Positions 4,411 to 53,748 of a DNA stretch of 64,000 bases are shown one piece after another. A program made the translations under genes and the position numbers. The notes below the pieces were generated by a model that was not told where the DNA came from, ran no database searches, and was given only the letters and a program-made list of their open reading frames with translations. The stretch is from Candidatus Zhuqueibacterota bacterium (GTDB taxonomy: Bacteria > BS750m-G25), in contig JADHWK010000006.1 of the NCBI GenBank assembly GCA_016783505.1, forward strand, positions 20,276-84,275, read 5' to 3'. How positions within the stretch are numbered: the first letter of the stretch is position 1; each line of letters opens with the position of its first letter.

Positions 4411-4507
4411 CAAAGATGAACTTAGCCCCCTCGGGGCAATCGGTCAGGCGCCCGACTGACTGGAATAATGGCCTACAGCGACGTTAAAATAGCAAAAAAA
4501 AGATGAA

Positions 4508-5773
4508 ATGACACGAATTTCTTCAATCTGCGGTTTTGGGTTTTTCTTGTTGTCTGCGCTGATTATAAAAATCCCATCGGCTTGGTGCCAGGAGGAGATG
4601 GTCATCTTGACCCGGTCCTTTGGCGTCGGGGCTAGGGCCATGGGGATGGGAGGGGCCTACGTGGGGGTATGTGACGATTTTACCGCTACTCAATTCAACC
4701 CGGCCGGGCTGGCTCAGATTCGGAGAATCGAAATCCAGACCGGTCTTTCCCATCTTTTCGCCCACCATGAGGGCGCCTATTATGGTACTACAAAAAAGGA
4801 TATGACGGGCTATACCCGAATAAATACTATAGGAGTTGTCTTTCCCTATCCGGTCTACCGGGGAAGCCTGGTTTTTGCGGCTGGATATAATCGGGCAATC
4901 AGCTTTGACGGTTCGGCCACCTTTACGGGATATAATCCGGTGCAAGTTGCGAAGGTGGATGCCCTTGAGCTTGAGAACGGGGGATTGGGGCCCATCACCT
5001 TAGCCAGTGCGGTGGACTTTTTAAAAGACCTCTCCTTAGGATTTTCCTTAGACATCTGGATGGGAAAGGACGAATATAGCTGGCAGGTTGAGAAACATAT
5101 TTTAGACAGTTTCGGGAACGTATATATAGATTCCACTCTTAACGATAATATCAGCACGAAATTCACTGGCATTACCCTTAAATTCGGTTGTCTCTATCGG
5201 ATGGGGTCAACCCTTCGGGTGGGCGCAGTAATCTCACCCCCGATCACACTTACTGCTGAAGAGACATGGAATATGTCTGATGAGGTGAGGGATGTGGATA
5301 CGACGGTATTTTCCTCGTGGTCTGGGGATTACACCTACAAAATTCGACGGCCCTTTTCCTTTGCCGCAGGGCTATCCCTTTCCTTCGCCTTTCTGCTCCT
5401 TACCGCCGATTGGAGCTACACTGATTGGCGGCAGATGAAATATACCTACCCGGCTGAATTTCTGAGGAAAAACCCGGGCTTTCGGAATGGGTATCGGGCC
5501 ACCACCCGGACACGTATTGGGTTGGAATTTCCGGTTCCCCGTACGGGCTTAAGGCTGCGGGGTGGATACGGGGTTGATCCGCTGGCTTATCAATGTCATC
5601 AAATTAAAAAAGATAGGCACTATTTTTCGTTGGGGGCGGGTATCACTTTCACGGGAAAGGTGGCGGTTGACCTCGCCTTTGTCCGGGAAGAATGGGAAAT
5701 GGCTACTACAGGTTACATTGTTGAGGACATACGTCACGATAAAATCTTCTTTACTGCTACCTTTCGGATATAA
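4508..5773 (+). CDS. OmpP1/FadL-type outer-membrane transporter
   Basis: A 421-residue protein with a signal peptide (ending about SAWCQ). The N-terminal GVGARAMGMGGAYVGVCDDFTATQFNPAGLAQI is the hallmark of the OmpP1/FadL/TodX and PorV superfamily. Length and the long series of amphipathic strands ending with FTATFRI fit a FadL-like barrel of about 14 strands that passes hydrophobic compounds across the outer membrane. It follows the CxxCH lipoprotein by about 95 bp. The substrate cannot be told. Confidence 0.75.
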   Translation: MTRISSICGFGFFLLSALIIKIPSAWCQEEMVILTRSFGVGARAMGMGGAYVGVCDDFTATQFNPAGLAQIRRIEIQTGLSHLFAHHEGAYYGTTKKDMTGYTRINTIGVVFPYPVYRGSLVFAAGYNRAISFDGSATFTGYNPVQVAKVDALELENGGLGPITLASAVDFLKDLSLGFSLDIWMGKDEYSWQVEKHILDSFGNVYIDSTLNDNISTKFTGITLKFGCLYRMGSTLRVGAVISPPITLTAEETWNMSDEVRDVDTTVFSSWSGDYTYKIRRPFSFAAGLSLSFAFLLLTADWSYTDWRQMKYTYPAEFLRKNPGFRNGYRATTRTRIGLEFPVPRTGLRLRGGYGVDPLAYQCHQIKKDRHYFSLGAGITFTGKVAVDLAFVREEWEMATTGYIVEDIRHDKIFFTATFRI

Positions 5774-13910: not shown

Positions 13911-15545
13911 TTGACCCTTAACAAACTTTTTCAAACTCTGATAATTTTTATGATGGCGGAGTCCGTCTGGGCCCAGCTTCCCATCCCGCTGCGGATCGTC
14001 AACCGGAACCCTACCGTGGAGGAGGCCTCTTCAGGGGGAAAGCCGGCGGTGCCCGACACTAACTACTTCTTCCCCCATTACAGCGATGACCGCCATCGTT
14101 CCTCCTACGACCAACTGGTGGGGCAGGAGTTCTGGGCTGATGTGATGGTGGATACGGTGATTTCCTCTACCTATAAGGTGGCCTCCTGCAGCGTCAGGGT
14201 GGCCTGGAATTTAGCGGTCATTCGCCTTCAGGAGGTTCGGATCGGTGATATGTGGGGGTTTGGTGTGGATTCTGGCCTCACCTTTCAGGTCAACAGTCAG
14301 ACCGTTTCCCAGGACAGTTTTCTTTTAGACCCTTTGGTTTCCCAGAACTCCCGGGCGGTGGAGGTGGAGTTAACCACCCCATCATCTGTAGGGCCGGACG
14401 GGGAGTCGTCCCTGTTTAAACTCCGATTTCAGGTAGCGGCCCCCGGTGTATCCCCGATTGACATCACCGCTGCTGAAGTAAAAGATCAGTATGGGGTGCC
14501 GTTCACACTGTACTATATAACTTCTTCCGGCAGCAATGGCTGGGCCAAGTTCATTCTGGGCGATTTCGGCGGGGACCATAATGATTGGATTCCGGACTCC
14601 GAAGTGGATTACCGGGATCTTGTCCCCTTAGCCGTCAACTTTGGCCGCTCTATCGGGGATACGGCCCTTACCCTACCGGATGATTCCGTCTTCTGGCGGG
14701 GGAGGCTGGACATCGGACCTACCAGCACCGGTGGGGTTGACGGTATTCCCCAGCAAGACGGCCGCATTGATTTTGAGGATCTGGTCCTTTTCTCCATCAA
14801 TTACGGACGTTCCTATCAGGGGACGTTCGACCAGAAAGGCATTCCCCATCCCAACCCCCAAGTGACCGTGCGCTGGCGAGGCTGGCCGGAGGAGGCCCCG
14901 GGGGATTCCTTCACCTGCGACCTGGTGGTCGAAAATATAGCCTCCTTGAAGGCCTTCCGGGTGGTGCTGGAATATGACTCCCGTGCCTTGGCTTTGGGAT
15001 CGGTGGATGAGGGGCGTTGGTTGAAGGATGAAAGGAGAGTCTTTTTCCATTCTTCTAGAAAAACCGAAGGAGGGGTTGGCATTCTTGACCTTTCGGCAGC
15101 CTTATTAGAGGGTACCGCCTCCGGGGATGGGGAGCTGGTCCGGTTTTGTTTTCATTCCCGACCAGGACAAATTTTTAGTCCACCCCGGGTGGTGTTGGAC
15201 CTCAGGGATGGGATTAATCGAAGGATAAGCTATCGGTGGACATATGGGACCGGGGAAACCCTGGCCGGTGAATTTCGTCTCGGGTCCAATTACCCCAATC
15301 CGTTCAATGCCAACACTGCAATCCCATTTGTCATTGACCAGGAAGGATCGGTGTCTTTGTCGGTAGTAAATTCAAAGGGACAGGTCATTTCCCCTTTGTT
15401 TAACGGTTTGAGGCAGCCCGGGATATACCAGGTCATCTGGGATGCTACCGACGGGGATGGCCTTAAGGTGGCCAGCGGCCCCTATTTTATCCTGCTGGAA
15501 CAGGGTCCCCGGAGGGCGGTCAGAAGGGTACTGATTTTGAGATGA
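13911..15545 (+). CDS. Secreted protein: cohesin, dockerin-like repeats, cohesin, sorting domain
   Basis: 544 residues. Signal peptide to about VWAQ (TTG start; ATG 13950 would shorten it too much). Residues about 75-215 look like a cohesin-type beta-sandwich. Two dockerin-like calcium repeats follow: GDFGGDHNDWIPDSEVDYRDLVPLAVNFGRS and DIGPTSTGGVDGIPQQDGRIDFEDLVLFSINYGRS. A second cohesin-like domain spans about 320-435, and the C-terminus (FRLGSNYPNPFNANTAIPF...) is a type IX/FlgD-like sorting domain. The protein should be secreted and surface-held. Cohesin and dockerin in one chain could allow self-assembly or binding to the neighbour at 15722; that is inference. Confidence 0.72.
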   Translation: MTLNKLFQTLIIFMMAESVWAQLPIPLRIVNRNPTVEEASSGGKPAVPDTNYFFPHYSDDRHRSSYDQLVGQEFWADVMVDTVISSTYKVASCSVRVAWNLAVIRLQEVRIGDMWGFGVDSGLTFQVNSQTVSQDSFLLDPLVSQNSRAVEVELTTPSSVGPDGESSLFKLRFQVAAPGVSPIDITAAEVKDQYGVPFTLYYITSSGSNGWAKFILGDFGGDHNDWIPDSEVDYRDLVPLAVNFGRSIGDTALTLPDDSVFWRGRLDIGPTSTGGVDGIPQQDGRIDFEDLVLFSINYGRSYQGTFDQKGIPHPNPQVTVRWRGWPEEAPGDSFTCDLVVENIASLKAFRVVLEYDSRALALGSVDEGRWLKDERRVFFHSSRKTEGGVGILDLSAALLEGTASGDGELVRFCFHSRPGQIFSPPRVVLDLRDGINRRISYRWTYGTGETLAGEFRLGSNYPNPFNANTAIPFVIDQEGSVSLSVVNSKGQVISPLFNGLRQPGIYQVIWDATDGDGLKVASGPYFILLEQGPRRAVRRVLILR

Positions 15546-15561: not shown

Positions 15562-15702
15562 TGAACACTGAAAAATACTGAATTGTTGATTGTTAATTGT
15601 CAATTGTTAAAACCCAGACTCCAGCATCAATCAGCAATCAGCAATTAGCAATCATTTCAGTATCATTTCCCAAGATCGTTCCGACAGTGTTTTCCGAATC
15701 TG
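15562..15702. repeat. Dispersed imperfect palindrome, family A copy 2
   Basis: The longest copy: AACACTGAAAAATACTGAA and TTGATTGTTAATTGTCAATTG on the left pair with CAATTAGCAATCATTTCAGT and CAGTGTTTTCC on the right, around a centre of AAAACCCAGACTCCAGCATC. It fills almost the whole gap between two cohesin-domain genes. Confidence 0.85.
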
Positions 15703-15721
15703 GTATGAACAGGCAGCGATT

Positions 15722-16795
15722 ATGAGAAGCAGTTCCTTTCTGTTGATTTTTTTGGTGGGCTCGACCCTAAGGGCCCAGCCCGTAGGGGTTCGCTTTGACC
15801 CATCCCGGTTAACTACCAACGTGGCCGTCGGGGACAGCTTTCGCTTGGCGGTAGTCCTGAACAGCACGGCTACTTTTGTGCGGGGGACACATCTGAAGAT
15901 AGAATTCAGTGACACCGTTCTGACCCCCGGAAGGGTTGATCTGGGAACATTATTCACCCAGACCAGTGCCGCATACTTCTTTGATTACCACACTGATACC
16001 CGGGATTCATCCCTGGTCTTGGATGCGGCGGTATTAGGCTACGGCCGATACTTTAACGGTCCCGGGGTCTTATTCTGGATTAGTTTCCATGCATTAGGTG
16101 TCGGAGACATTCAGTTAATTATTACTGAACTGAATTTATTTGATGTGGATGGTGATTCTGTAGAAGCTGAAGGCTTCGCTGGTTATGTAAAAGTGGCCCA
16201 GAGCGATGAGTGGCCCCCGGGACCGGTGACCCATTTTACTGCCACTGCCGGGCGGGACGGACATATTTTCTTAAGCTGGCATAACCCGGACGATTTTGAT
16301 TTTCGTGAGACGATGATCCGGCGAAAGGTGGGGGAATTTCCAAACAGCCATACTGACGGGGACATCGTTTACGCCGGTCCGGCAGAGGGCTTTCACGATA
16401 CCAGGCTGCAGCAGGGGATAACCTTTTACTATCAGGCATATAGTTATGACGATGAGATTCCGCCCAATTATTCTTCAGGGGTTGGGGACACGGCGACCAC
16501 TCAGTTCCTGGGAACCTACGCCGCCCCCAATCCCTTTAATCCGGACCGGGAGACGGTCAAAATTGCCTTTATGTTAGAGGAGGACGCCCGGCTAACCATA
16601 GAGATTTTCGATGCTTTCGGACGCCGAGTTATTACCTTGATAGAGGATGAATTCATATGGGCCCGGGAACAAAACCAGGTGTTTTGGGATGGAGAGAATC
16701 AGAGGGGAGATCAGGTGGCCAACGGCGTGTATATCTATCGGTTAAGAACAAATAGGGGTTACAAAAGAATAGGGAAAATTGGTGTTGTGCGCTAA
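15722..16795 (+). CDS. Secreted cohesin-FN3 protein with FlgD-like C-terminus
   Basis: 357 residues: signal peptide (MRSSSFLLIFLVGSTLRAQ), cohesin-like domain about 20-155 (VRFDPSRLTTNVAVGDSFRLAVVLN...LLIITELNLFD-type strands), fibronectin type III domain about 165-260 (GPVTHFTATAGRDGHIFLSWHNP), and a FlgD/sorting-like end (YAAPNPFNPDRETVKIAFML...GRRVITLIEDEFIWAREQNQVFWDGENQRGDQVANGVYIYRLRT). Likely exported by the same route as the gene before it. Its cohesin could bind the dockerin-like repeats of the upstream protein. It overlaps the PorV-like gene that follows. Confidence 0.7.
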   Translation: MRSSSFLLIFLVGSTLRAQPVGVRFDPSRLTTNVAVGDSFRLAVVLNSTATFVRGTHLKIEFSDTVLTPGRVDLGTLFTQTSAAYFFDYHTDTRDSSLVLDAAVLGYGRYFNGPGVLFWISFHALGVGDIQLIITELNLFDVDGDSVEAEGFAGYVKVAQSDEWPPGPVTHFTATAGRDGHIFLSWHNPDDFDFRETMIRRKVGEFPNSHTDGDIVYAGPAEGFHDTRLQQGITFYYQAYSYDDEIPPNYSSGVGDTATTQFLGTYAAPNPFNPDRETVKIAFMLEEDARLTIEIFDAFGRRVITLIEDEFIWAREQNQVFWDGENQRGDQVANGVYIYRLRTNRGYKRIGKIGVVR

Positions 16796-17732
16796 ATGGG
16801 CAATTCGTAAATTGCCCCTGCGTCTTTTTATCATAGCCTTTGGGGTTGGGGGGTTACAACCGGTTTTTGGTGGAGATAAAGGGGACGGAGGCTATGCCGG
16901 GGGATTTTTGCGGTTCGGGGTGGGGGCCCGAGCCCTGGGAATGGGTAACGCCTTTGTTGCCGTGGCCGATGACCCCACCTCCTGCTACTGGAACCCGGCC
17001 GGGCTAACTCGGGTGGGGGGAATCGGTTTCACCACCTCCACTATCCTGATGTCCCTGGGGAGGAGGCTGGATTACATCGGATTGGTTCGACCCATTACCC
17101 ATCTGCGGGCTATTGGGGTGGGCTTTGTGAACTTTGGCCTAGGGGATATCGAGGGGCGGGATCAGTATGGACTTCCTACCCAAAAGTTCAGCTTTCGGGA
17201 AAGCGCCCTTTTGGTCTCTTATGGATTTATCCTGCGGGAAGGACTGGGGGTTGGTCTTACCGGGAAGCTCTTAAACAGCAGCTTGGCTAATTATCGAGCC
17301 TATGGGGCGGGTGTGGATGTGGGGCTCTTATGGAAACCCATTACCTCGGCGACAGTGGGTGTGGTGGCCCAGGATGTCTACACCTATCTGAAATGGGACA
17401 CACCGGCCAGCCATGGGGAGCGGTTTCCTATCCACTTCAAGGTGGCCTTTTCCAACGCCGTTTTGGACAGCGCCCTTCAATTTTCTATTGCTTATGATAA
17501 AAACATAGAACAGGCTCCGGGCCGCCATCTGGGAATAGAATATTGGTTTCAGAAAACGATTGGGTTTCGCATAGGTAGGGAGGGAAATGATACCGTCTTT
17601 GGCCTGGGAATAATCTACCGTACCTTTCACTTTGATTACGGCTTTCGGCCTGATTCCATGGGTGAGGGCGGGGTGCATGCCCTGGATGTTGGATTCCGTT
17701 TGCCAGGCCGATTGATAAGGCTTTCGCCTTAG
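16782..17732 (+). CDS. PorV/PorQ-like outer-membrane protein
   Basis: About 316 residues. After a signal-like stretch (LRLFIIAFGVGGLQPVFG) comes FLRFGVGARALGMGNAFVAVADDPTSCYWNPAGL, the signature of the PorV/PorQ (UPF0164) family, FadL-like barrels that serve as outer-membrane components or cargo shuttles of type IX secretion. GTG 16782 is chosen because AGGGAA lies 6 nt upstream; TTG 16779 and TTG 16812 are alternatives. It overlaps the upstream cohesin gene by 14 bases, linking sorting-domain cargo to a secretion component. A REP palindrome is embedded in its first codons. Confidence 0.72.
   Translation: MLCAKWAIRKLPLRLFIIAFGVGGLQPVFGGDKGDGGYAGGFLRFGVGARALGMGNAFVAVADDPTSCYWNPAGLTRVGGIGFTTSTILMSLGRRLDYIGLVRPITHLRAIGVGFVNFGLGDIEGRDQYGLPTQKFSFRESALLVSYGFILREGLGVGLTGKLLNSSLANYRAYGAGVDVGLLWKPITSATVGVVAQDVYTYLKWDTPASHGERFPIHFKVAFSNAVLDSALQFSIAYDKNIEQAPGRHLGIEYWFQKTIGFRIGREGNDTVFGLGIIYRTFHFDYGFRPDSMGEGGVHALDVGFRLPGRLIRLSP
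16798..16817. repeat. REP palindrome at the start of the PorV-like gene
   Basis: GGGCAATTCGTAAATTGCCC, near-identical to the core of the 28-bp palindrome inside the RAYT gene at 12693. It overlaps the likely translation start region and could fold over it. Confidence 0.7.
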
Positions 17733-35477: not shown

Positions 35478-38400
35478 ATGAAAAGGGCGATATTATTTTT
35501 ACAGATCCTTAGCTTTTCCTTCGTCCTTGGCTTGGCACTCTTAGTCCTTCGGGTCAATGCTGAATCCCGATGGGTCTCCCTGAACACCATCCCCGGTGAC
35601 CGCACTGAAATTTCCGTTCTATCATCGGATGACTTCCGTACGGTCATCCGAGTGACGGTGCCCGGGATGTCGGTTGCGGATTTTAGCAGGAACGGTGAGA
35701 CCTTTCAGGTTCTAACGATTCCCGATGCGGGGACCTCAACGGATGAGGGGAAACCCCAGCTTCCCTTAATCCGAAGGCTGGTGGCCGTACCCCCGGATAG
35801 GGGGATTCACCTGAAGATCCTGAAAGAAGAACATCACCTGCTTTCCGGGTATCGGGTGGTCCCCTATCAAAAACCGCCCCTGAGGGGGGAATCACAAGTG
35901 GAAGGCTGGGTTATTGACGAGACCTTTTATTCAAAAGATGATTACTTACCGGAAAGTCCGGTCAGACTGGAGGAGCCCGTCATTCTGCGTGATTTCCGGG
36001 CCGTGCCCTTAGTGATAGAGCCCGTAAGCTACAATCCGGTCAGGGGAGAGCTAATGGTCACCACCCAAATCGTGGTCGAGTTAAGCTACGCTGGCGCTGG
36101 GACGGGGAATGTGAAAACCCGGCCCTACGGCCCCCGGTCCCGGGCCTTTGACGGGATCTATCGGCGGACTTTATTAAATTATGACCAGGTCGCTTCCACC
36201 ACCGAACTGGGGGATGAGGGGCGGATGCTGATCATAACCCACGATAATTTTTACGATAATGTTATCCCCTTGGCCGAATGGAAACACCGCAAGGGTATCC
36301 CCACTACGGTGGTGGCCTTATCAGAGATCGGAGCCAACCCCTCCCCGGATGAGATCAAAGATTTCATCTCCGATGCCTACTTCAACTGGGGAGTTTCCCC
36401 TGAATATGTACTGTTCGTCGGGGATGTTCAATATATCCCCTGGTGGGTGGGGGTGCACGGCTCCCGTACCGACCACCGCTACGCCACCTTGGAGGGCGAC
36501 GACTTCCTGGCCGATGTCATCCTGGGCCGGTTTTCGGTGCAGACCCCAGCGGAGGCCGACACGGTGGTGCAGAAATCCATCGCCTACGAAAGGGATCCCT
36601 ATTTAGATGAAACGAACTGGTATACCAGCGCCATGGTCATCGCCTCAGCCGACAACCTTGATCCTGAAAACGGTCAATTGGCGGCCAACCTCTTTATAAA
36701 TCATGGGTTTACCACCGTAGATGAGCTGCAGGAGATCCAAGGTACCGCAACCTTCTCCGCGGTGGAAAACGGGTTAAACCAGGGCCGGAGCTGGGTTTTC
36801 TATATCGGCCACGGATCACCCAATGGTTGGACCAGCGTCCATCCTAACTTCACTACCGGTGACATTGATTCGCTGACCCACGGGCACAAAATCCCGGCTA
36901 TCATCTCCATCGCCTGTTCCAATGCCGATTTAGACCGGCCCGGGGATGTCTTCGGCGAGGTGTGGATGAAAGGCCGCGTTTCCGGGGGGGCGGCCAACTT
37001 CCTCGGGTTCACTGAACTGGTGTCATTCTACACCTCCGATTCGCTGGGCCGGGGGGTCCTTTACGGCTATTTCGACGAGAACATCCATACCTTCGGGGGA
37101 GCCACCGACTACGGTAGGCTGTTCATGTATCAATATTTCGGTAGTACAGGTCAGGAGACCATGGAGCAGTGCATCGTCCTGGGGGATCCAGAGCAGAACG
37201 TGTGGTCGGGGTTACCCGTTCTGCTTACCGTGATCCGACCGGAAATGGCTCGGATTGGCTGTTCTGAGTATGAAGTAGGCGTCTTTATAGAGGGCAACCC
37301 GGTTGAGGGGGCCCTTGTCTGTGTTTTGAATGATGAGCTGTATGCGTCAGGATACACGGAGGAGGACGGCGGGATCACCCTCATATTAGACCCGCCCCCC
37401 CAGACCCCGGGAGAAGACCTCTTTTTAACAGTCACTGCCCATAATGCCCTTCCTTACATAGACACTGTTCAGGTGGGTGGCTGGTATGGTGTTCTGACCG
37501 GGGCGGTCACCGACGCTGCCACCGGGGATTCCCTGGCCGAAGCCGTGGTTACTGTTGGGGAGATTGGGTTGGTAGACACCACCGGTGAGGACGGCCTTTT
37601 TCTGTTTGAGGAGGTTCCCGAATGGAACTATACGGTTACGGTGACCCGGGAGGGTTATCTGGATTGGTATCAGGAGGGGGTGGTGGTGGATTCCGGCCAG
37701 ACCACGGTGCTTGATGCGGGACTGCTCCATCCCGAATTTGTGGTGGATGTGGATTCTTCGGGGATCCATATTACCCTGCTTCCTGGGGGGGAGACCAATG
37801 TAGTTTTCAATATTCTGAATCCGGGGAACGGCCCCTTAGAGTATGGAATCGGTCTGGAATATCCCGGTTGGACCGACTCTGTTAATCTTGATCAGCCCTT
37901 GTTTTCCTATGATCTGGGGATGCTAACCGGGGACGAAAGGCTTTTGGGGGTGGAGTTTGATTCAAGTTTCTTCTACGTCTCCGGGGCCAACAATTCTGCT
38001 CAGCCCAATTACATCTATGTTTTTGATCGGGATGGTAATTTGGTGAGGGCTTTTGAGCAGCCCGGCGGGTCTGCGGGATGGGGTTTCCGGGATTTGGCCT
38101 GGGATGGGCAGTTTTTATACGGGAGTTTCGGTCCCGAGATTACCGTCTTTGATCCGGTGGGCAATTATGTAGGTGGGATACCGGGTCCGATTCAGCCCAG
38201 CCGGGCTATTGCTTATGATCCGGGGACGGATCATTTCTGGGTGGCCGGGGTGAACACGGGTCTTTATGAGATTGACCGGCAGGGGGATGTGATCAGTAGC
38301 TATCCTTGTAGCCTGCGGGTCTACGGGCTGGCCTGGCGGGGGGATGACTTAGAGGGGGCCAATCTTCACCTGTTCTCCCGGGAGGGGACCGATCAGGTCT

Positions 38401-39065
38401 CCACGGTGAGCAAGTTTAATCCTTCTCGGGGAGAGTTAATTCCTTTGGGTAGCTTGCCCTTTATGGATGGGGATCGAGCCATGGGGGCGGCCCTTACTGG
38501 GGATTGGATTCCGGCTAAGTGGGTATTATTGGGGTTGATTAACGGTCCTACGGTCAGGCTGGAGGGTTACATCGTCGGGGATAACCTGATCTGGGTGCGG
38601 CCCTCACCCCGGGAGGGGACGGTAGCCGGGGGGGAGGCCCAGTCGGTCATCGTCCACTTAAACACTGTGGGACTTGAGGAGGGGACATACACCGGTGAAA
38701 TCCACATTCAGCACTCGGCGGTCGGGGAGGAAGGGGTCATTCCGGTTACCTTGACGGTTCAGGCCCTCTCGGTGTCTGAAAGGGAATCGTTTAAATTACC
38801 GACTGATTATGAATTATTCCAGAACTATCCCAATCCCTTCAATCCCTCCACTACCATACAGTATGGTCTGCCCGAACCCGGTAGGGTAACCCTAAAAGTT
38901 TACAACATATCTGGTCAGGAGGTAGCCACCTTGGCTGATGAACATCAACCTGCCGGTTACCACCAGATAAGTTGGGATGCAACCGGTCATTCGTCAGGTA
39001 TCTATTTTTACCAAATTCAAGCGGGGGAGTTTCAGAAGGTGAGAAAGATTATTTTTTTGAAGTGA
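35478..39065 (+). CDS. Gingipain-family (C25) peptidase with sorting domain
   Basis: 1195 residues. Signal peptide to about NAES; propeptide-like region to about 230; caspase-like C25 catalytic domain about 245-580 with His445 in YIGHGSPNGW and Cys480 in ISIACSNADLD. Then an Ig-like/carboxypeptidase-regulatory domain (GVLTGAVTDAATGDSLAEAVVTVGEIG...), an NHL-like propeller stretch around 810-1000, a second beta-sandwich, and a type IX sorting domain (ELFQNYPNPFNPSTTIQYGLPEPGRVTLKVYNISGQEVATLADEH...IFLK). Likely secreted by type IX secretion and held at the surface; cleavage specificity cannot be read. AGGAGA-like site before ATG. Confidence 0.85.
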   Translation: MKRAILFLQILSFSFVLGLALLVLRVNAESRWVSLNTIPGDRTEISVLSSDDFRTVIRVTVPGMSVADFSRNGETFQVLTIPDAGTSTDEGKPQLPLIRRLVAVPPDRGIHLKILKEEHHLLSGYRVVPYQKPPLRGESQVEGWVIDETFYSKDDYLPESPVRLEEPVILRDFRAVPLVIEPVSYNPVRGELMVTTQIVVELSYAGAGTGNVKTRPYGPRSRAFDGIYRRTLLNYDQVASTTELGDEGRMLIITHDNFYDNVIPLAEWKHRKGIPTTVVALSEIGANPSPDEIKDFISDAYFNWGVSPEYVLFVGDVQYIPWWVGVHGSRTDHRYATLEGDDFLADVILGRFSVQTPAEADTVVQKSIAYERDPYLDETNWYTSAMVIASADNLDPENGQLAANLFINHGFTTVDELQEIQGTATFSAVENGLNQGRSWVFYIGHGSPNGWTSVHPNFTTGDIDSLTHGHKIPAIISIACSNADLDRPGDVFGEVWMKGRVSGGAANFLGFTELVSFYTSDSLGRGVLYGYFDENIHTFGGATDYGRLFMYQYFGSTGQETMEQCIVLGDPEQNVWSGLPVLLTVIRPEMARIGCSEYEVGVFIEGNPVEGALVCVLNDELYASGYTEEDGGITLILDPPPQTPGEDLFLTVTAHNALPYIDTVQVGGWYGVLTGAVTDAATGDSLAEAVVTVGEIGLVDTTGEDGLFLFEEVPEWNYTVTVTREGYLDWYQEGVVVDSGQTTVLDAGLLHPEFVVDVDSSGIHITLLPGGETNVVFNILNPGNGPLEYGIGLEYPGWTDSVNLDQPLFSYDLGMLTGDERLLGVEFDSSFFYVSGANNSAQPNYIYVFDRDGNLVRAFEQPGGSAGWGFRDLAWDGQFLYGSFGPEITVFDPVGNYVGGIPGPIQPSRAIAYDPGTDHFWVAGVNTGLYEIDRQGDVISSYPCSLRVYGLAWRGDDLEGANLHLFSREGTDQVSTVSKFNPSRGELIPLGSLPFMDGDRAMGAALTGDWIPAKWVLLGLINGPTVRLEGYIVGDNLIWVRPSPREGTVAGGEAQSVIVHLNTVGLEEGTYTGEIHIQHSAVGEEGVIPVTLTVQALSVSERESFKLPTDYELFQNYPNPFNPSTTIQYGLPEPGRVTLKVYNISGQEVATLADEHQPAGYHQISWDATGHSSGIYFYQIQAGEFQKVRKIIFLK

Positions 39066-39085
39066 AATTTAAACCCTTCTCATTT

Positions 39086-39128
39086 AAAAGGCCTATTCAT
39101 TCATCTTGAGTAGGTCTTTTGTTTTTTT
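39086..39128 (+). terminator. Terminator, 3' cassette copy 1
   Basis: AAAAGGCCTA ... TAGGTCTTTTGTTTTTTT. Nearly identical to the terminator at 41664, as is the preceding coding end. Confidence 0.8.
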
Positions 39129-39138
39129 GATTTTCTTC

Positions 39139-39167
39139 TTGATTCTATCTCCACAATTCACTATATT
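39139..39167 (+). promoter_or_regulatory. Promoter (TTGATT-17-TATATT)
   Basis: TTGATT at 39139-39144, 17-nt spacer, TATATT at 39162-39167. It leaves a leader of about 250 nt before the LVIVD gene (39168-39423), in which I see no other feature. Confidence 0.5.
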
Positions 39168-39423
39168 TGCTCTGCAGGCCTTTCCATTCGGAGCCTCCTC
39201 TGAACTGGTTAGCCCCTTAAAGATACCCCTGTTAAGCTACTAATCTTGGTAGGGCTATTGTTGGTTTGCCAACTGAAGTAGTCTATCCGGCTAAGGATTT
39301 CAGGGGTTTATTAGTTGTCTTGTTATTCTGAAAAGGAAATAACTACTTTCATTAAGGGAGGAGACTAAAATAAAGATGTTAGACCCGCCATACAAAATTC
39401 AACGAACAAATGAGGAGATCATT

Positions 39424-41643
39424 ATGTTTTTGAAATATTGTAAAATCTTATTAGAGACAGTAATGATTGCAATCTTATTTTGCAGTCTTGCTTTTGGCCA
39501 GAATAACAGACCAGCAAATGTGCCCCCAGAACAGCTCCCATCAAGGGATATTCGCCACCATGTAAATTACATACCGCAGGAGACTTTTCAAGCCTTCAGC
39601 GATAGTAATACTACACTAATAGGATGGTGGGCAAGAGATCCCTGTTATGCCGTGGATGTATTGGGTAACATTGCCTATTTTGGTAATGGGGGCTATCTTG
39701 AAGTTGTAGATATATACGATCCGGCAAATCCCGATGAATTAGGAAAGATATTAACTCCGTCAGAAGTTAGAGGCGTTGCCGTCAGCGGCAGTTACGCCTA
39801 TGTGGCCAATGGGTGGTATGGGTTACGCATCATTGACGTCTCCACCCCTTCCTCTCCGCAAGAAGTGGGCTTCTTTGATACGGGGGACCTTGCTTTTGGC
39901 GTTGCAGTCAGCGGCAGTTACGCCTATGTGGCCGATAGGAGTGATGGTTTACGCATCATTGACGTCTCCACCCCTTCCTCTCCGCAAGAGGTGGGCTTCT
40001 TTGATACGGGGGACCTTGCTTTTGGCGTTGCAGTCAGCGGCAGTTACGCCTATGTGGCCGATTGGGATGATGGTTTACGCATCATTGACGTTTCCACCCC
40101 TTCTTCTCCGCAAGAAGTGGGCTTCTTTGATACGGGTGGCGAAGCTTTAGGTGTTGCCGTCAGCGGCAGTTACGCCTATGTGGCCGATTGGGATGATGGT
40201 TTACGCATCATTGACGTTTCCACCCCTTCTTCTCCGCAAGAAGTGGGCTTCTTTGATATGGGTGGCTTGGCTTTAGGCGTTGCCGTCAGCGGCAGTTACG
40301 CCTATGTGGCCGATGGGGCGGATGGTTTACGCATCATTGACGTCTCCACTCCCTCCTCTCCGCAAGAAGTGGGCTTCTTTGATATGGGTGGCTTGGCTTT
40401 AGGCGTTGCCGTCAGCGGCAGTTACGCCTATGTGGCCGATGGTTTACGCATCATTGACGTCTCCACCCCCTCCTCTCCGCAAGAAGTGGGCTTCTTTGAT
40501 ACGGGTAGCTGGGCTCAAGACGTTGCCGTCAGCGGCAGTTACGCCTATGTGGCCTATGGGTTGGATGGTTTACGCATCATTGACGTCTCCACCCCCTCCT
40601 CTCCGCAAGAAGTGGGCTTCTTTGATACGAGTAATAATGCTCGGGGCGTTGCCGTCAGCGGCAGTTACGCCTATGTGGCCGATGGGAATGCTGGTTTACG
40701 CATCATTGACGTCTCCACCCCTTCCTCTCCGCAAGAAGTGGGGTTCTTTTTTATGGGGCACAGGGCTTTGGGCGTTGCCGTCAGCGGCAGTTACGCCTAT
40801 GTGGTCGGGGATGGTTTACGCATCATAGACGTCTCCACCCCTTCCTCTCCGCAAGAAGTGGGCTTCTTTGATACGGGTAGCTGGGCTTTAGGCGTTGCCG
40901 TCAGCGGCAGTTACGCCTATGTGGCCGATGGGGGGAATGGGTTACGCATCATAGACGTCTCCACCCCTTCCTCTCCGCAAGAAGTGGGCTTCTTTGATAC
41001 GGGTGGCGAAGCTTTAGGCGTTGCCGTCAGCGGCAGTTACGCCTATGTGGCCGATGGGTCTGCTGGTTTACGCATCATTGACGTCTCCACTCCCTCCTCT
41101 CCGCAAGAAGTGGGCTTCTTTGATACGAGTAGCTATGCTCGTGGCGTTGCCGTCAGCGGCAGTTACGCCTATGTGGCCGATTACTCTGATGGTTTACGCA
41201 TCATTGACGTCTCCACCCCTTCCTCTCCGCAAGAAGTGGGCTTCTTTGATACGGGTGGCGAAGCTTTAGGCGTTGCCGTCAGCGGCAGTTACGTCTATGT
41301 GGCCGATGGGTTGTATGGTATGTATATTATACAGAACGATCTACTATTAGTTATTAATGAAGAGTCCAGCTATTCCCCAGGGAATTTCTTATTAGCTCAA
41401 AATTATCCCAATCCATTTAATCCAATAACAACCTTTAAATACGGCCTTCCAAAAGAGTCAAATGTAACCCTGAAGATATTTAACATCCTCGGAAGAAAAG
41501 TGACCACCTTGGCTGATGAACATAAACCTCCCGGTTACCACCAGATAAGTTGGGATGCAACCGGTCATTCGTCAGGTATCTATTTTTATCAAATTCAAGC
41601 GGGTGAGTTTCAGAAGGTGAGAAAGATGATTTTTTTTAAGTGA
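39424..41643 (+). CDS. Secreted LVIVD-repeat propeller protein with sorting domain
   Basis: 739 residues from ATG 39424 (GAGGAGATC before it; the track's 39376 is less likely). Signal peptide to LAFGQ. About thirteen repeats of 42 residues, GVAVSGSYAYVAD-xxx-GLRIIDVSTPSSPQEVGFFDTG-xx-A-x, the LVIVD pattern thought to form beta-propellers. Repeats 6 and 9 are two to three residues shorter. Between copies only the turn after YVAD and the turn after FFDTG differ. The C-terminus (FLLAQNYPNPFNPITTFKYGLPKESNVTLKIFNILGRKVTTLADEH...) is a sorting domain. Presumably a surface binding protein. Confidence 0.85.
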   Translation: MFLKYCKILLETVMIAILFCSLAFGQNNRPANVPPEQLPSRDIRHHVNYIPQETFQAFSDSNTTLIGWWARDPCYAVDVLGNIAYFGNGGYLEVVDIYDPANPDELGKILTPSEVRGVAVSGSYAYVANGWYGLRIIDVSTPSSPQEVGFFDTGDLAFGVAVSGSYAYVADRSDGLRIIDVSTPSSPQEVGFFDTGDLAFGVAVSGSYAYVADWDDGLRIIDVSTPSSPQEVGFFDTGGEALGVAVSGSYAYVADWDDGLRIIDVSTPSSPQEVGFFDMGGLALGVAVSGSYAYVADGADGLRIIDVSTPSSPQEVGFFDMGGLALGVAVSGSYAYVADGLRIIDVSTPSSPQEVGFFDTGSWAQDVAVSGSYAYVAYGLDGLRIIDVSTPSSPQEVGFFDTSNNARGVAVSGSYAYVADGNAGLRIIDVSTPSSPQEVGFFFMGHRALGVAVSGSYAYVVGDGLRIIDVSTPSSPQEVGFFDTGSWALGVAVSGSYAYVADGGNGLRIIDVSTPSSPQEVGFFDTGGEALGVAVSGSYAYVADGSAGLRIIDVSTPSSPQEVGFFDTSSYARGVAVSGSYAYVADYSDGLRIIDVSTPSSPQEVGFFDTGGEALGVAVSGSYVYVADGLYGMYIIQNDLLLVINEESSYSPGNFLLAQNYPNPFNPITTFKYGLPKESNVTLKIFNILGRKVTTLADEHKPPGYHQISWDATGHSSGIYFYQIQAGEFQKVRKMIFFK
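39771..41310 (+). repeat. 126-bp tandem repeat array, about 13 units
   Basis: Unit: GTTGCCGTCAGCGGCAGTTACGCCTATGTGGCCGAT, variable 6-12 bases, GGTTTACGCATCATTGACGTCTCCACCCC, TCCTCTCCGCAAGAAGTGGGCTTCTTTGATACG, variable 6-9 bases. Fixed parts are almost identical even at silent positions, which points to recent homogenisation. It also keeps a second frame open, producing spurious ORFs. Confidence 0.92.
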
Positions 41644-41663
41644 GATTTAAACCCTTTTCATTT

Positions 41664-41706
41664 AAAAGGCCTATTCATTCATCTTGAGTAGGCTTTTTGT
41701 TTTTTT
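41664..41706 (+). terminator. Terminator, 3' cassette copy 2
   Basis: AAAAGGCCTA ... TAGGCTTTTTGTTTTTTTG, a copy of the one at 39086. Confidence 0.8.
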
Positions 41707-41716
41707 GAATTTATAC

Positions 41717-41744
41717 TTGATTTTTAAAGATTAATTGCTATATT
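41717..41744 (+). promoter_or_regulatory. Promoter (TTGATT-16-TATATT)
   Basis: TTGATT at 41717-41722, 16-nt spacer, TATATT at 41739-41744, about 80 bp before the beta-helix gene. Same position relative to the terminator as at 39139. Confidence 0.55.
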
Positions 41745-41824
41745 AAATGATGTAATCCTAATTTACTGGAATCCAAACCTTCCTGAGTGTTATATTCCTA
41801 CCTGTATTATGTAAGGAGACTAAA

Positions 41825-43423
41825 ACGAGAAAATTATTTAAAAGCTTTTACTTCGGATTGTTTATGGTCGCCATAGCAAATGCAACCATCATCAATGTCC
41901 CGGGAGATCAACCGACAATTCAGGCTGGGATCAATATTGCAGTGAATGGTGACACTATTCTTGTCCAACCTGGCAGCTATGTAGAAAACATCAATTTTAA
42001 CGGAAAAAATATTGTTGTAGGATCATTGTTTCTAACAACAGGCGACACTGCCTACATCTCACAGACCGTGATTGATGGAGACTCCAGCGGAAGTGTTGTA
42101 ACGTTTGAGAATAGTGAGGATACGACGGCGGTGTTAAGGGGGTTTACGATTACAAACGGTTCGTATGGTTCTGGTGGTGGGATTTACTGCTTGAATTCCA
42201 GTCCAAGATTGGTGAATGTGACAATGATAGGTAATTCTGCTGATGAATATGGTGGCGGTATTTTCTGTAGTGATGAATCCAGCCCAAGTTTGGAGAATGT
42301 TACGATAAGTGGGAATACGGCTGATGATGGTGGTGGGATTTACTGTTATGAATCCAGCCCGAGTTTAATAAATGTGACGGTGAGTGGAAACACATCCTCT
42401 TCTTACGGCGGCGGGATTTGCTGCATTGTTAATTCCAATCTGAGTTTTGTGAACGTGACAATAACAAATAATTATGCTTATTCTGGGGGAGGGATTTGGT
42501 GTGTTGAATCCAGCCCGAGTTTGGAGAATGTGACCATAATAGTAAATTCTGCTATAAATGGTGGCGGGATTTTCTGTGATGTCAACTCCAGCCCGAGTTT
42601 GGATAATGTTACGATAAGTGGGAATACGGCTGTTTATTCTGGCGGCGGGATTTACTGTCGGAATAATTCTATCCCAAGTTTGTCGAATGTAACCATAAGC
42701 GAGAATACGGCTCATATTGGTGGTGGGATTTACTGTCATGATAATTCCAACCCGACTTTGATAAATACCGTCCTCTGGAACGATTTGTCGCAGGAGATTT
42801 ATTTCTGCCAATATGGAGACTCAAGTTCCATTACAATCGCCTATTCCGATGTGCAGGGTGGGCAAGATAGTATTGTAACCAACGACAATGGCACTGTGAA
42901 CTGGCTGGAAGGGAATATTGATACCGATCCGCTGTTTGTTGATGCTACAAGTGGTGATTTTCACCATCAAGAAGGTTCCCCCTGTATAGATGCAGGAATA
43001 CCAGACACTTCTGGGTTAAATCTACCACTTTGGGATTTAGATGGTAATCAGCGTATCTGGGATGGTGATGGAGACGGTTCAGCGATTATTGATATGGGTG
43101 CTTATGAATATGGTTCTCCGTCAGTTGTCGGGATAGATGATAATGCTATGGTTGAACTAATAAGCTTTAATCTTTACCAAAATTACCCCAATCCCTTCAA
43201 CCATATGAGCACAATCAAATACGGGTTTCCCAAAGAGTCAAAGGTAACCTTGAAGATCTTTGACATCCTAGGGCGGGAAGTGACTACTTTGGTCAATGAA
43301 CATCAGACTGCCGGTTATTATCAGGTAAGTTGGGATGCATCCGGTTATTCGTCTGGTATCTATTTTTATCAAATTCAAGCTGGTGAGTTTCGGAAGGTGA
43401 GGAAGATGGTTTTGTTGAAATAA
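41825..43423 (+). CDS. Secreted parallel beta-helix protein with sorting domain, apparent ACG start
   Basis: About 532 residues. GTAAGGAGAC followed six bases later by ACG gives TRKLFKSFYFGLFMVAIANATIINVPGD, a perfect signal peptide and strong ribosome-binding site with only the start codon odd; the track's TTG at 41858 truncates the signal. Residues about 30-65 are a DUF1565-type opening (PTIQAGINIAVNGDTILVQPGSYVENI), followed by about ten repeats of SSPSLENVTISGNTA..GGGIYC, a right-handed beta-helix, and a sorting domain (LYQNYPNPFNHMSTIKYGFPKESKVTLKIFDILGREV...). Likely surface-exposed; carbohydrate binding or lyase activity is possible but no catalytic site is evident. Confidence 0.75.
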   Translation, partial: TRKLFKSFYFGLFMVAIANATIINVPGDQPTIQAGINIAVNGDTILVQPGSYVENINFNGKNIVVGSLFLTTGDTAYISQTVIDGDSSGSVVTFENSEDTTAVLRGFTITNGSYGSGGGIYCLNSSPRLVNVTMIGNSADEYGGGIFCSDESSPSLENVTISGNTADDGGGIYCYESSPSLINVTVSGNTSSSYGGGICCIVNSNLSFVNVTITNNYAYSGGGIWCVESSPSLENVTIIVNSAINGGGIFCDVNSSPSLDNVTISGNTAVYSGGGIYCRNNSIPSLSNVTISENTAHIGGGIYCHDNSNPTLINTVLWNDLSQEIYFCQYGDSSSITIAYSDVQGGQDSIVTNDNGTVNWLEGNIDTDPLFVDATSGDFHHQEGSPCIDAGIPDTSGLNLPLWDLDGNQRIWDGDGDGSAIIDMGAYEYGSPSVVGIDDNAMVELISFNLYQNYPNPFNHMSTIKYGFPKESKVTLKIFDILGREVTTLVNEHQTAGYYQVSWDASGYSSGIYFYQIQAGEFRKVRKMVLLK

Positions 43424-48844: not shown

Positions 48845-49308
48845 CCCCCACTTTCAGACAACAAATTGGGCTCATCTTGAATTTTTATGAGTACCACTAA
48901 AACCCGGAAAGAGGGATAAATTTTAGTTATTTGGCCGATATCGTGCCTCAGCCTCTTCTGTGTCATTCCTGAATGTTTTCATCAGGAATCCAGGTTTTTT
49001 GGGGAGGGTTTCTTTTAGGAAAACCAGTAAGAGTGGATTCCCGCTAGAGGATTGCCCTGCCAGGCATGGCGGGAATGACAAAAAAAGAAACAGCTAAGGG
49101 AAAAAAATCATATTGATGCATTTTTTTCCAGCAAAGAAACAGTAACAAATTTTTGTTAAATAGACAAATTATTGTTTGTATCCGCACTAACCTGTGAAGA
49201 GCCCGGCGGGTAATTAATCGTAATACGAAGACGCAACTAACAAACAAGACTAGTCCGGCATTTGCCGGACAAACGAAAAGGGAATGACGTAACCTATTTT
49301 TAGGGAGG
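48845..49308. other. Intergenic region, no gene seen
   Basis: 464 bp. Contains ATTCCCGC...GCGGGAAT (about 49037-49076), a hairpin repeat of the sort seen across many genomes, GAATGTTTTCATCAGGAATCC, and TAGTCCGGCATTTGCCGGACAAA. No promoter of the window's usual type was recognised. The ribosome-binding site of the next gene, AGGGAGG, is at its end. Confidence 0.5.
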
Positions 49309-49314
49309 ATGAAG

Positions 49315-51714
49315 ATGAAAAAGTTCTTATCAATCATTCTGGGGTTGCTGGTCATGTCTTCTATTGCCGGGGCCCAGCTACTCGTGCCCACCCAATCGGT
49401 GGCCACCACCGACGATGCCTTATCTACCGCCGTAAATCCGGCTGGGCTGGGGGTCAACCGTAAAGCCCAGGGATATCTACTGGGGACTTATAACGGCGAT
49501 TTCGGCCGGAACAGCAGTTTATTCCTGTCCGCTGACGGCTTAGGCTTCGGGGCCGGGTGGTTGGAGGAAGGGGGTTCCCATTATCAGCACTACATCCTGG
49601 CCCTGGGGAGCTATTCCGGTAGTGGATTTTACCTGGGGGGGAGCTATGAATGGTTCGGGACGGTGGATCGTTCCGGGATATTCAACCTGGGGGCACTGTA
49701 CCGCCCCTTTCCCTCCCTGTCGTTGGGGCTTGCCGCCCGTCAAATCAACAAACCGGATGGGATTTATCCCCAGTATGACATCGGAATTGCCCTGCGATCT
49801 TTCGGCAATCGGCTGACGCTGGCTCTGGACGCCAGCCTGAACAAAATGGGCGATAACGCCTACGGAGACAGCCTGAACCCTACCCTTCTGGTCAACTTAG
49901 AGATGGTTGACGGGATCGTCTTTAGGGGTCATTACTCTGAAGACGGCTACGGGGTAGGACTGGGTATTAACTTTAGCTCTGCAGGACTGGGGGGATACAG
50001 CTCTTTTTCCGACGGTTCCCATCAGGGGGGCGTATCCTACGCCCGCTTTTCCGCCGAGAGGTATCGCACCGTATTCAAAAAGCGGCCCGCCCAATTCATT
50101 GAGCTAAAACTGTCGGGTCCCATCTTTGTGGGAAAACCGGGTTTTTCCCTGTTCGGTCCCAAGGGTTGGACGATGAAATCCCTGATTAATCGAATCAAAC
50201 AGCTTAAGGAGGACGAAGCCGTTTCCGGGATGATTCTGAAGCTGGGGCCCGTTGGGGTGGGGTGGGGTAAGATGCAGGAGATCCGGGACGCCCTGACCGG
50301 TTTTCGGGAAGGGGGCAAGCAAATCATCTGCTTCATGGAAATGGGGGGGAACGGCCAGTATTATCTGGCCTCGGTCTGCGATAAGATTTATATGGAACCC
50401 TCAGGCTATCTTAATTTTAACGGCCTGCGGGTTGAAGTAACCTTCCTGAAGGGAACCCTGGATAAGCTGGGAATTAAGGCCGAGCTGGAGCACATCGGCC
50501 GCTACAAATCCGCCTCTGACATGCTCACCCGTGACTCCATGTCTGTGGCCCATCGGGAGGTGATGAACTCTATTCTTGATGACCTCTTCGACCAGTTCAC
50601 TACCCAGATCGCCGAGAGTCGCCATTTCACTAACGAAGAATTGGTGGAGAAAATCGATCGGGGCCCCTATACTGCTAAGGAGGCCTACGAGGCCGGACTG
50701 GTGGATTCCTTAGTCTATGAAGACCAACTGGAGGATTTGGCCAAACGGGTAGGCGGGGAGAAAGTCAAGGTTGTGAAGGCCAAAAAGTATTTTAAGCGCA
50801 AGGACTACGTCCATGATTGGGTTGATCCCACCCGGGATAAGATCGCCATTGTTTACGCTACCGGACTCATCGTCCCCGGTAAAAGTGAGACCGACCCCTT
50901 CACGGGCAGTAAGACCATGGGCTCGGAGACCATCGCAAAGGCCATCAGAAACGCCCGGGAGAACGAGGGGGTGAAGGCCATCGTCTTCCGTATTGATTCG
51001 GGTGGGGGTTCCGGGCTGGCCTCCGATATCATCTGGCATGAGGTTAAATTAACCACCGAGGGGGAGAAGAAAAAACCCTTCATCGTCTCCATGGCCGACG
51101 TGGCCGGGTCGGGAGGTTACTATATCGCCTGTGCCGCCGATACTATCGTGGCCGAACCGGGCACCATCACCGGTTCCATCGGGGTTATCTCGGGTAAGTT
51201 TGACATCAGTGGGCTGGAGCGCAAGATCGGCTTTCACACCGACATTATCAAACGTGGTGAACACGCCGATATTTACTCCAGTTCCAGGGGCTTTACCGAG
51301 GAGGAGCGGGAGAAGGTTCGCAAGCAGATACGGGAATTCTACGAGGATTTTATCGCCAAGGTGGCCGAGGGTAGGGACACAAACGCCGTTTATATAGATT
51401 CGATCGGCATGGGCCGCATCTGGACGGGTAGACAAGGTGTAGGTATCGGTCTGGTGGATACCCTGGGGGGATTGGATCTAGCGGTAGAGATCGCTAAGGC
51501 GGCGGCAGGGATCCCCGCAGAAAAGGGGGTGGACCTTGAGATCTATCCCAGGTTGAAGAAATTCGGGATTGAGCTGAAAATCGGTTCGATGCTAGTCAGG
51601 GGCTTTACCCTTTCACCCGAGGAACGACTGGCCTTAAGAATTGAAGAGCTGAGGAAACTCTACGCTTCAGGCCAGCCCCTGCTGATCATGCCTTACAATA
51701 TAAAAATTGAATAA
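49315..51714 (+). CDS. sppA: Outer-membrane barrel-like domain fused to SppA peptidase
   Basis: 799 residues from ATG 49315, correctly spaced from AGGGAGG (ATG 49309 would abut it). Signal peptide to about AGAQ. Residues about 20-245 resemble a PorV/FadL-type barrel (SVATTDDALSTAVNPAGLGVNRKAQGYLLGTYNG...SSAGLGGYSSFSDGSHQGG). From about 260 come two ClpP-fold domains of the long SppA type: the lysine in RYKSASDML (about K398) and the serine in DVAGSGGYYIACAAD (about S599) form the Ser/Lys dyad. SppA degrades signal peptides and membrane remnants. A barrel-linked form would sit at the outer membrane or periplasm. Intact. Confidence 0.82.
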   Translation: MKKFLSIILGLLVMSSIAGAQLLVPTQSVATTDDALSTAVNPAGLGVNRKAQGYLLGTYNGDFGRNSSLFLSADGLGFGAGWLEEGGSHYQHYILALGSYSGSGFYLGGSYEWFGTVDRSGIFNLGALYRPFPSLSLGLAARQINKPDGIYPQYDIGIALRSFGNRLTLALDASLNKMGDNAYGDSLNPTLLVNLEMVDGIVFRGHYSEDGYGVGLGINFSSAGLGGYSSFSDGSHQGGVSYARFSAERYRTVFKKRPAQFIELKLSGPIFVGKPGFSLFGPKGWTMKSLINRIKQLKEDEAVSGMILKLGPVGVGWGKMQEIRDALTGFREGGKQIICFMEMGGNGQYYLASVCDKIYMEPSGYLNFNGLRVEVTFLKGTLDKLGIKAELEHIGRYKSASDMLTRDSMSVAHREVMNSILDDLFDQFTTQIAESRHFTNEELVEKIDRGPYTAKEAYEAGLVDSLVYEDQLEDLAKRVGGEKVKVVKAKKYFKRKDYVHDWVDPTRDKIAIVYATGLIVPGKSETDPFTGSKTMGSETIAKAIRNARENEGVKAIVFRIDSGGGSGLASDIIWHEVKLTTEGEKKKPFIVSMADVAGSGGYYIACAADTIVAEPGTITGSIGVISGKFDISGLERKIGFHTDIIKRGEHADIYSSSRGFTEEEREKVRKQIREFYEDFIAKVAEGRDTNAVYIDSIGMGRIWTGRQGVGIGLVDTLGGLDLAVEIAKAAAGIPAEKGVDLEIYPRLKKFGIELKIGSMLVRGFTLSPEERLALRIEELRKLYASGQPLLIMPYNIKIE

Positions 51715-52257: not shown

Positions 52258-53748
52258 ATGGAAAAGATTCCTCTTTCAGACTGGATTGCTTTTGGGGGGT
52301 TACTTTCAGGCCTTTTCGTTTTTGTGGGGGCGGCGGAGAAGATCCGGTCCCGGCTGGGCTGGCCGGGCGAGGTGACCAGGAAGTTAGTGCACGTGCTGGT
52401 AGGGGTGCTGGTGTTCTCTACCCCCTTCTTTATCCAATCGCCTATACCCCTCTATATTCTGGCCATCATCTTCATCGTAGTGAACTTCACTACCACAAAA
52501 TTTGGACTGCTGAAAGGAATGCACGACACCGAACGGGTGACCTATGGAACTACATATTACCCCATAGCTTTCCTGTTTTTGGTCCTCTTCTTCTGGAAAG
52601 ACTACAAGGTCGTCCTGATGGCGGCCATGCTCATTCTGGCCCTGGGGGATGCAGCGGCCACTTTAGTGGGAAAAAATATTAGGGGAGCGCACATCTATTA
52701 TTTCAGCAAAGCGAAAAAATCTGTCGAAGGGTCATCCACCCTGTTTCTCCTTACCGTAATAATCACTTTGTTGTGCCTTCATTATTTGGGATATATAGAT
52801 GGTCTAAAGATTCATTTTCCGGAGGCCCTGTGGATAGCGGTGTTGACGGCCATCGGGGCTGTGGTGATTGAGGCCCTCTCCGGATACGGATTGGACAATC
52901 TGTTCACCCCCTTAGGTGCTGCCTTCATAACCCATTTCATGATCGTCCACGGACCGGTGACCAACCTGTACTTCACCCTGGGGATGATCTTTGCCCTGGT
53001 CGTGGTTATCATCTCCATTAGGGCTAAATTCCTGGAGCTGGGGGGGGCAGCGGCTACCTTTCTTTTGGGATGGGCTATTTTCGGGATCGGGGGCTGGTCC
53101 TGGGCGTTACCCATCCTGGTCTTCTTCTTCCTATCCAGCATTATCTCCAAACTGGGAAAAAACAAGAAAAAGGAATACGAAGGGCTGTTCGCCAAGTCCA
53201 GCCGCAGGGACCTGGGCCAGGTACTGGCCAACGGGGGGGCGGCGGGGTTACTGATGCTCGGGTGGAATTTTTTTTCTAACGATCTATTCTATCTTCTGTA
53301 TCTGGGCACGCTGGCGGCGGTAACGGCCGATACTTGGGGCACCGAAGTGGGCCTCTGGATCGGGGGTCAGCCGCGGTCGATCCTTTCCTTCAAACAGTTA
53401 CCCAAAGGGGCCTCCGGCGGCATAACCCTACGGGGAACCCTGGGGGCTGCCGTGGGGGCGGGCCTCATCGCCCTGACCGGCTATGGGCTGCGACCGGACC
53501 TGATCGGGATTCGGATAGGGACCTTTATCGCCCTCAGCGGTCTTTTAGCCAGCTTAGTGGACAGCGTCTTAGGGATTACCATTCAGGCCCAGTATGAATG
53601 CCCAGTCTGTCAAAAACTAACGGAGCGGGCCAGGCACTGCGGGGATCGGGTCACTGAGCTGAAATCGGGCTTCCCCTGGATTGATAATGATATGGTCAAC
53701 TGGGGCTGTGCTCTGTCGGGAATTTTTCTCATGTGGCTGTTGGTGTAA
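52258..53748 (+). CDS. Phytol/dolichol kinase-like domain fused to DUF92 (VTE6-like)
   Basis: 496 residues, about 12 membrane helices. N-terminal half (about 1-230): RKLVHVLVGVLVF, GMHDTERVTYGTTYYPIAF, LALGDAAATLVGKNIRG, KSVEGSSTLF, the CTP-dependent phytol/dolichol kinase family (VTE5-like). C-terminal half (about 240-496): LELGGAAATFLLGWAIFGIGGWSWALPILVFFFLSSIISKLG, TLAAVTADTWGTEVGLWIG, PKGASGGITLRGTLGA, DSVLGITIQAQYECPVC, the DUF92/VTE6 family, reported to phosphorylate phytyl phosphate. Thus one protein could convert a prenol to its diphosphate in two steps. A prenol-salvage role is inference; the fusion is directly seen. Confidence 0.78.
   Translation: MEKIPLSDWIAFGGLLSGLFVFVGAAEKIRSRLGWPGEVTRKLVHVLVGVLVFSTPFFIQSPIPLYILAIIFIVVNFTTTKFGLLKGMHDTERVTYGTTYYPIAFLFLVLFFWKDYKVVLMAAMLILALGDAAATLVGKNIRGAHIYYFSKAKKSVEGSSTLFLLTVIITLLCLHYLGYIDGLKIHFPEALWIAVLTAIGAVVIEALSGYGLDNLFTPLGAAFITHFMIVHGPVTNLYFTLGMIFALVVVIISIRAKFLELGGAAATFLLGWAIFGIGGWSWALPILVFFFLSSIISKLGKNKKKEYEGLFAKSSRRDLGQVLANGGAAGLLMLGWNFFSNDLFYLLYLGTLAAVTADTWGTEVGLWIGGQPRSILSFKQLPKGASGGITLRGTLGAAVGAGLIALTGYGLRPDLIGIRIGTFIALSGLLASLVDSVLGITIQAQYECPVCQKLTERARHCGDRVTELKSGFPWIDNDMVNWGCALSGIFLMWLLV

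Follow-up and report, generated by a model that had tools for sequence, protein, structure and literature searches.

A predicted PorV/FadL-type barrel fused to the long form of signal peptide peptidase A in Candidatus Zhuqueibacterota and other bacterial lineages

The window, a 64,000-nt stretch of one contig from a Candidatus Zhuqueibacterota bacterium, contained an open reading frame for 799 residues (49315..51714), which was read from the sequence and supported by its fused homologues. The frame and all features of the gene described here lie on the forward (+) strand. It encoded a single uninterrupted protein composed of a signal peptide, a barrel region of ~225 residues (residues 21–246) and a complete long signal peptide peptidase A (SppA) with tandem S49 domains. 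The ATG at 49315 was preferred over an upstream ATG at 49309 because a GGAGG ribosome-binding site (49304..49308) is located 6 nt before the former and directly touches the latter. Residues 1–20 (49315..49374) were predicted to form a cleavable Sec signal peptide, cut between SIAGA and QLL according to an AxA motif read from the sequence. An N-terminal hatch with an NPAGL helix (residues 21–51; 49375..49467) was predicted by AlphaFold2 (helices 35–38 and 42–47) and by conservation; residues 28–45 read SVATTDDALSTAVNPAGL, exactly the opening quoted in the original prediction, which had taken the gene for a fusion of a PorV/FadL-like barrel with SppA. A 14-stranded β-barrel was predicted at residues 52–246 (49468..50052) from AlphaFold2, Foldseek, hhalign and amphipathic alternation, and was linked to the SppA part by a short segment (residues 247–259; 50053..50091) delimited by the AlphaFold2 secondary structure.

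The neighbouring genes encoded a MoxR ATPase, a DUF58 protein, a DUF92 protein and an M1 peptidase, and indicated no pathway. The DUF92 membrane protein (52258-53748) had an extra N-terminal membrane half of ~240 residues, for which there was no Pfam match. Upstream of the fusion gene lay a 43-bp element (49037-49079) with inverted ends, ATTCCCGC...GCGGGAATGAC. Its exact pattern occurred once in the window, with none expected by chance, and it may be a REP-like element.

Residues ~287–750 matched the NCBIfam model SppA_67K (TIGR00705) with 335.4 bits, above the cut-off of 311.45. Pfam Peptidase_S49 (PF01343) matched this half twice, in a first domain that carried the catalytic lysine (50308..50742, contig coordinates C5:70583-71017; E 1.8e-29) and a second that carried the nucleophile (51064..51510, C5:71339-71785; E 5.8e-45). 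The predicted general base, Lys398 (50506..50508), is located in the motif GRYKSA, aligned to GTYKSA of E. coli SppA, and the predicted nucleophile, Ser599 (51109..51111), in the motif AGSGGYY, aligned to AASGGY. Both residues, in the motifs GxYKSA and AGSGGYY, were invariant in all 72 verified fused ORFs; two of these, L187 and L234, looked degenerate by score, yet retained the lysine and the serine. The C-terminal part of the protein belongs to the long SppA of family S49, and the Ser/Lys dyad that the original prediction had placed there was recovered.

In E. coli, SppA forms a tetramer that is anchored in the inner membrane by one N-terminal helix and breaks down signal peptides after their release into the periplasm (PMC9360617). 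This enzyme (protease IV, PDB code 3bez) was also the closest solved structure found by Foldseek (E 4.5e-44, TM 0.86 of target). The window protein shares with it the tandem S49 domains, the Ser-Lys pair distributed across both domains and the fold, but has a barrel in place of the helix. The hydropathy maximum over 19 residues after the signal peptide, within the extension, was 0.94, whereas most unfused SppAs began with a helix of 2.3–3.5. No membrane helix was predicted by hydropathy behind the signal peptide in the N-terminal extension, which differs in this from the usual inner-membrane-anchored long SppA. The missing helix is not decisive for membership of the family, because some unfused long SppAs, for example actinobacterial ones, also lack it.

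No Pfam or NCBIfam model matched residues 21–258 over its cut-off. Searches of Pfam, NCBIfam and PDB sequences with the barrel region gave nothing over threshold; the PDB sequence matches were those of chance, and the best Pfam match, TraF_2, stayed under threshold (E 0.009, in three members). The barrel assignment therefore had to rest on structural and profile evidence. The AlphaFold2 model of the whole protein, built from 26 sequences (pLDDT 84.4, pTM 0.75), consisted of two short hatch helices and 14 strands at residues 52–246, followed by SppA. The model of the isolated barrel region, built from 9 sequences (pLDDT 87.8, pTM 0.83), again contained 14 strands. When the barrel model was compared with the PDB by Foldseek, the top match was chain F of 8gl6, a PorV-containing complex of the type IX secretion system (T9SS), with an E value of 3.2e-6 and a TM-score of 0.64. 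In a sequence search, PorV was the molecule that the 8gl entries had in common with chain F of 6h3i, so that chain F of 8gl6 is very probably PorV. KdgM, OmpG and classical porins came next, and FadL and TodX were also present. The TM-scores of the barrel to known structures were moderate (0.64–0.66), probably because its strands and loops are short.

The strand-wise alternation of hydrophobicity summed to 32.6, against 16.6 ± 3.3 in 5000 shuffles (shuffle maximum 30.5), and is that of a membrane barrel. Closure between strands 1 and 14 is suggested by the matches to closed barrels. Residues Asn41 and Pro42 were aligned in 70 of the 72 fused ORFs, with a gap in the other two, and the conserved residues of the extension also included Gly108, Gly126, Arg130, Ser136, Gly138, Gly157, Arg161, Arg166 and Thr168. 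By prediction, the region possesses the N-terminal hatch and exactly the 14 transmembrane strands of the FadL-type superfamily, in agreement with the barrel originally proposed; neither a strand number too low for a barrel nor a soluble β-sandwich, the outcomes named beforehand as counting against it, appeared in the AlphaFold2 prediction. The lack of a curated family match would fit a soluble or surface β-domain that left the whole protein in the periplasm, but this is highly improbable in view of the 14 amphipathic strands, the best 50 listed PDB matches, all of which were membrane barrels, and the profile kinship with PorV.

That kinship was detected by hhalign, in which a profile of 14 fused N-termini aligned with nine PorV-type proteins of the host genome at 98.3% (E 2e-14, 187 columns). 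The value was still 95.6% when the hatch was removed, and the controls failed to reproduce it (≤0.3% for column shuffles and 4–5% for the reversed sequence). The profile of the fused N-termini also detected the host genome's own PorV, encoded next to PorU, at E 2e-7. The cut-off of the PorV/PorQ family NF033709 (90 bits) was not reached, and the N-terminal part had no NCBIfam match. On this profile evidence the barrel region is related to the PorV family, though it lies outside the curated PorV/PorQ family, and the PorV-like character ascribed to it at the outset was upheld. The host genome itself had an expanded PorV/PorQ family of 11 members over cut-off, several of which may be specialised shuttles.

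PorV and PorP are 14-stranded barrels of the FadL family (PMC9143113). The window barrel shares with PorV/PorQ (NF033709; 6h3i, 8gl6) the NPAGL hatch motif, the strand number and the profile kinship. It is shorter (~225 residues as against ~310–370), falls below the family cut-off and carries an enzyme. The FadL/TodX proteins (PF03349) likewise have 14 strands and an N-terminal hatch (TM ≤0.66 of query), but the window barrel is much shorter, without a Pfam match and without a known ligand. A barrel followed by a periplasmic domain is also the general plan of OmpA-type proteins, in which an N-terminal 8-stranded barrel precedes a peptidoglycan-binding domain; the window protein has 14 strands and a protease instead. 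The FadL-type topology with its hatch, and a linker short enough to hold both halves together, might point to a working channel, in which SppA would digest peptides and the barrel would pass the products, or FadL-like hydrophobic ligands, across the outer membrane. We consider this unlikely, as the loops of this minimal barrel are short, a ligand site is not known in it and the conserved residues of the extension look structural.

The distribution of the architecture was surveyed in 386 genomes, 94 of which were matched by the barrel profile at E ≤ 1e-8. Barrel matches in frames of at least 700 aa were fetched, and nearly all were fusions. Across all sources, 72 fused ORFs were verified (71 besides the window gene), with no stop between the halves; the other checked matches comprised one truncated frame and two without an SppA domain. 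In the latter two, L217 (G096:C4) and L218 (G298:C249), the barrel profile matched frames of ~760 aa in which no SppA domain was detected. The fusion was present in 62 of the survey genomes, belonging to 45 families, and a scan of named genomes found it in Zixibacteria, Poribacteria, TA06 and a Myxococcales MAG. The Bacteroidota SppAs that were fetched were unfused. In Myxococcota, 117 of 146 genomes contained the barrel domain, mostly in frames of 790–950 aa, the length of the fusion. The SppA features were checked there in G027, G203, L070 (identical to G416 by exact match), L244 and L245, and the assignment to Myxococcota rests on the identity of G416 with the named Myxococcales MAG.

The host assembly was fragmented and 60% complete, which might suggest an assembly chimera or a misread ORF, but this explanation is refuted by the 72 separately found fused ORFs without a stop between their halves, and its probability is negligible. 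On a tree built from the SppA half of the proteins, the fused label required 7 changes, compared with 50 in shuffles, which represented strong clustering. Few gains and losses of the fusion along the SppA tree are indicated, although deep support was poor; a single clean origin was not demonstrated, the separating deep branches having SH-aLRT values of 39–57. The barrel–SppA architecture is widespread and not a local oddity, and the fusion is real and old. An unfused long SppA was also present in at least 32 of the 62 genomes with the fusion; the fused form thus often supplements the ordinary one instead of replacing it. In the host assembly, incomplete as it was, one SppA was found.

The original prediction had suggested that a barrel might link SppA to the processing of exported proteins, and had named co-occurrence of the extension with type IX secretion as a point to survey. 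A PorU-like protein (E ≤ 1e-60) was encoded in 55 of the 62 fused genomes and in 41 of the 324 others, and at the curated PorU cut-off the counts were 42/62 and 19/324, both comparisons ignoring shared ancestry. Among the matches listed, 14 of the 50 genomes with only ordinary long SppA had a PorU-like protein, as against the same 55 of 62 with the fusion (odds ratio 20, p 3e-11; shared ancestry ignored). At the family level, 41 of the 45 fused families contained one. The host possessed a T9SS set, with PorU adjoining PorV on contig C51, SprA on contig C3 and 80 cargo tails over cut-off. A link to type IX secretion was thus supported in part. The association was strong but not obligate: PorU was not found in seven of the fused survey genomes, there was no PorU match in the myxococcal genome G027, and the PorU search of the Myxococcales MAG gave only a partial C25-like match. 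Since the architecture occurs in Myxococcota, with G027 lacking a PorU match, it is not dependent on T9SS. A tight dependence was rejected from the seven fused genomes without PorU and the near-universal barrel domain of Myxococcota. What Myxococcota and the T9SS lineages have in common may be some other requirement of the envelope.

These data bear on the possibility that the protein is a dedicated T9SS accessory, whose PorV-like barrel would dock next to the SprA translocon in the manner of PorV, while its SppA part cleared stalled cargo or cleaved peptides at the periplasmic mouth. The PorV kinship of the barrel in hhalign and Foldseek, the co-occurrence with PorU and the T9SS set of the host argue for such a role, as does the deletion of sppA in Flavobacterium columnare, which abolished gliding and increased vesicle output 3.8-fold (PMC13236525). 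In four Poribacteria, moreover, PorV/PorQ-like and T9SS-tail genes adjoined the fused gene. This linkage was seen only there: a conserved neighbourhood was looked for among the fused loci and was common only to Poribacteria, and the surroundings of the window gene were not a T9SS cluster. Together with the unfused SppAs of Bacteroidota, the Myxococcota and the seven genomes without PorU, and co-occurrence counts that ignore shared ancestry, this makes a dedicated accessory rather improbable.

The poribacterial cluster (L042:216-6978, also in L043, L052 and L038) consisted of the barrel–SppA gene followed by genes for a protein isoaspartate methyltransferase (PCMT), a PorV/PorQ-like barrel, a T9SS-tail protein and a Ycf48-like propeller. 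Poribacteria also encoded PorU-like proteins that were very large (about 2000 aa) and fell under the family cut-off. The window contained a run of type IX cargo genes at 35478-43420, composed of a gingipain-like C25 peptidase with a propeptide and a sorting tail (35478-39062) and two more sorting-tail proteins (39343-41640 and 41762-43420), the second of which also had Chlam_PMP repeats. Weak T9SS tails were present in two proteins (13911-15542 and 15611-16792) whose genes were directly followed by an overlapping barrel gene of the PorV/PorQ family (16773-17729), an arrangement that looks like a cargo–shuttle pair. A FadL/TodX-type barrel protein of 426 aa was encoded at 4493-5770.

The most probable reading, to which we assign a probability of roughly 0.7, is that the protein is a signal peptide peptidase A whose inner-membrane helix has been exchanged for an outer-membrane barrel anchor, and which faces the periplasm and degrades peptides or failed products there. 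After export by Sec and removal of the signal peptide, BAM would insert residues ~52–246, which would form a barrel of the PorV/FadL type with 14 strands and with the N-terminal hatch closing it. The outer-membrane placement of SppA originally envisaged is supported through this predicted barrel, the location itself being a prediction. With an even number of strands, the barrel would begin and end in the periplasm, and the tandem-S49 domain would consequently be held below the outer membrane on a linker of ~13 residues. If the tetramer of E. coli SppA is kept, a single chamber would be fixed to the inner leaflet by four barrels. Peptides or unfolded segments that gather at the outer membrane would be broken down at the Ser-Lys sites, for example signal peptides after their release, lipoproteins or outer-membrane proteins that have failed, and stalled secretion intermediates. 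This substrate class is a guess, because an enzyme at the outer membrane would be far from the site of signal-peptide release. The ordinary anchored SppA, where present, would cover the job at the inner membrane. A more specific version of the anchor-exchange reading, which we put forward tentatively and with the odds against it, is a proteolytic quality-control chamber that a widespread class of tethered SppA would form on the periplasmic side of the outer membrane, apart from the SppA at the inner membrane of the same cell, and that in T9SS bacteria would attend the translocon through the PorV-like barrel.

Both halves of the protein are known individually; a description of their combination was not found in the open-access literature, to which the search was confined. 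Such proteins are very probably present in sequence databases under the plain annotation SppA. The barrel region is a domain to annotate, unnamed in current family libraries, and the fusion would represent a case of membrane-anchor exchange. It is also a candidate for outer-membrane quality control, including in T9SS lineages, where sppA loss has a gliding phenotype (PMC13236525). If the anchor-exchange reading is true, many diderm lineages, including most sampled Myxococcota, would carry a chamber with Ser-Lys protease sites at their outer membrane, in many cases together with an SppA copy at the inner membrane. Part of the clean-up of the bacterial envelope may then take place at the outer membrane and not at the inner one.
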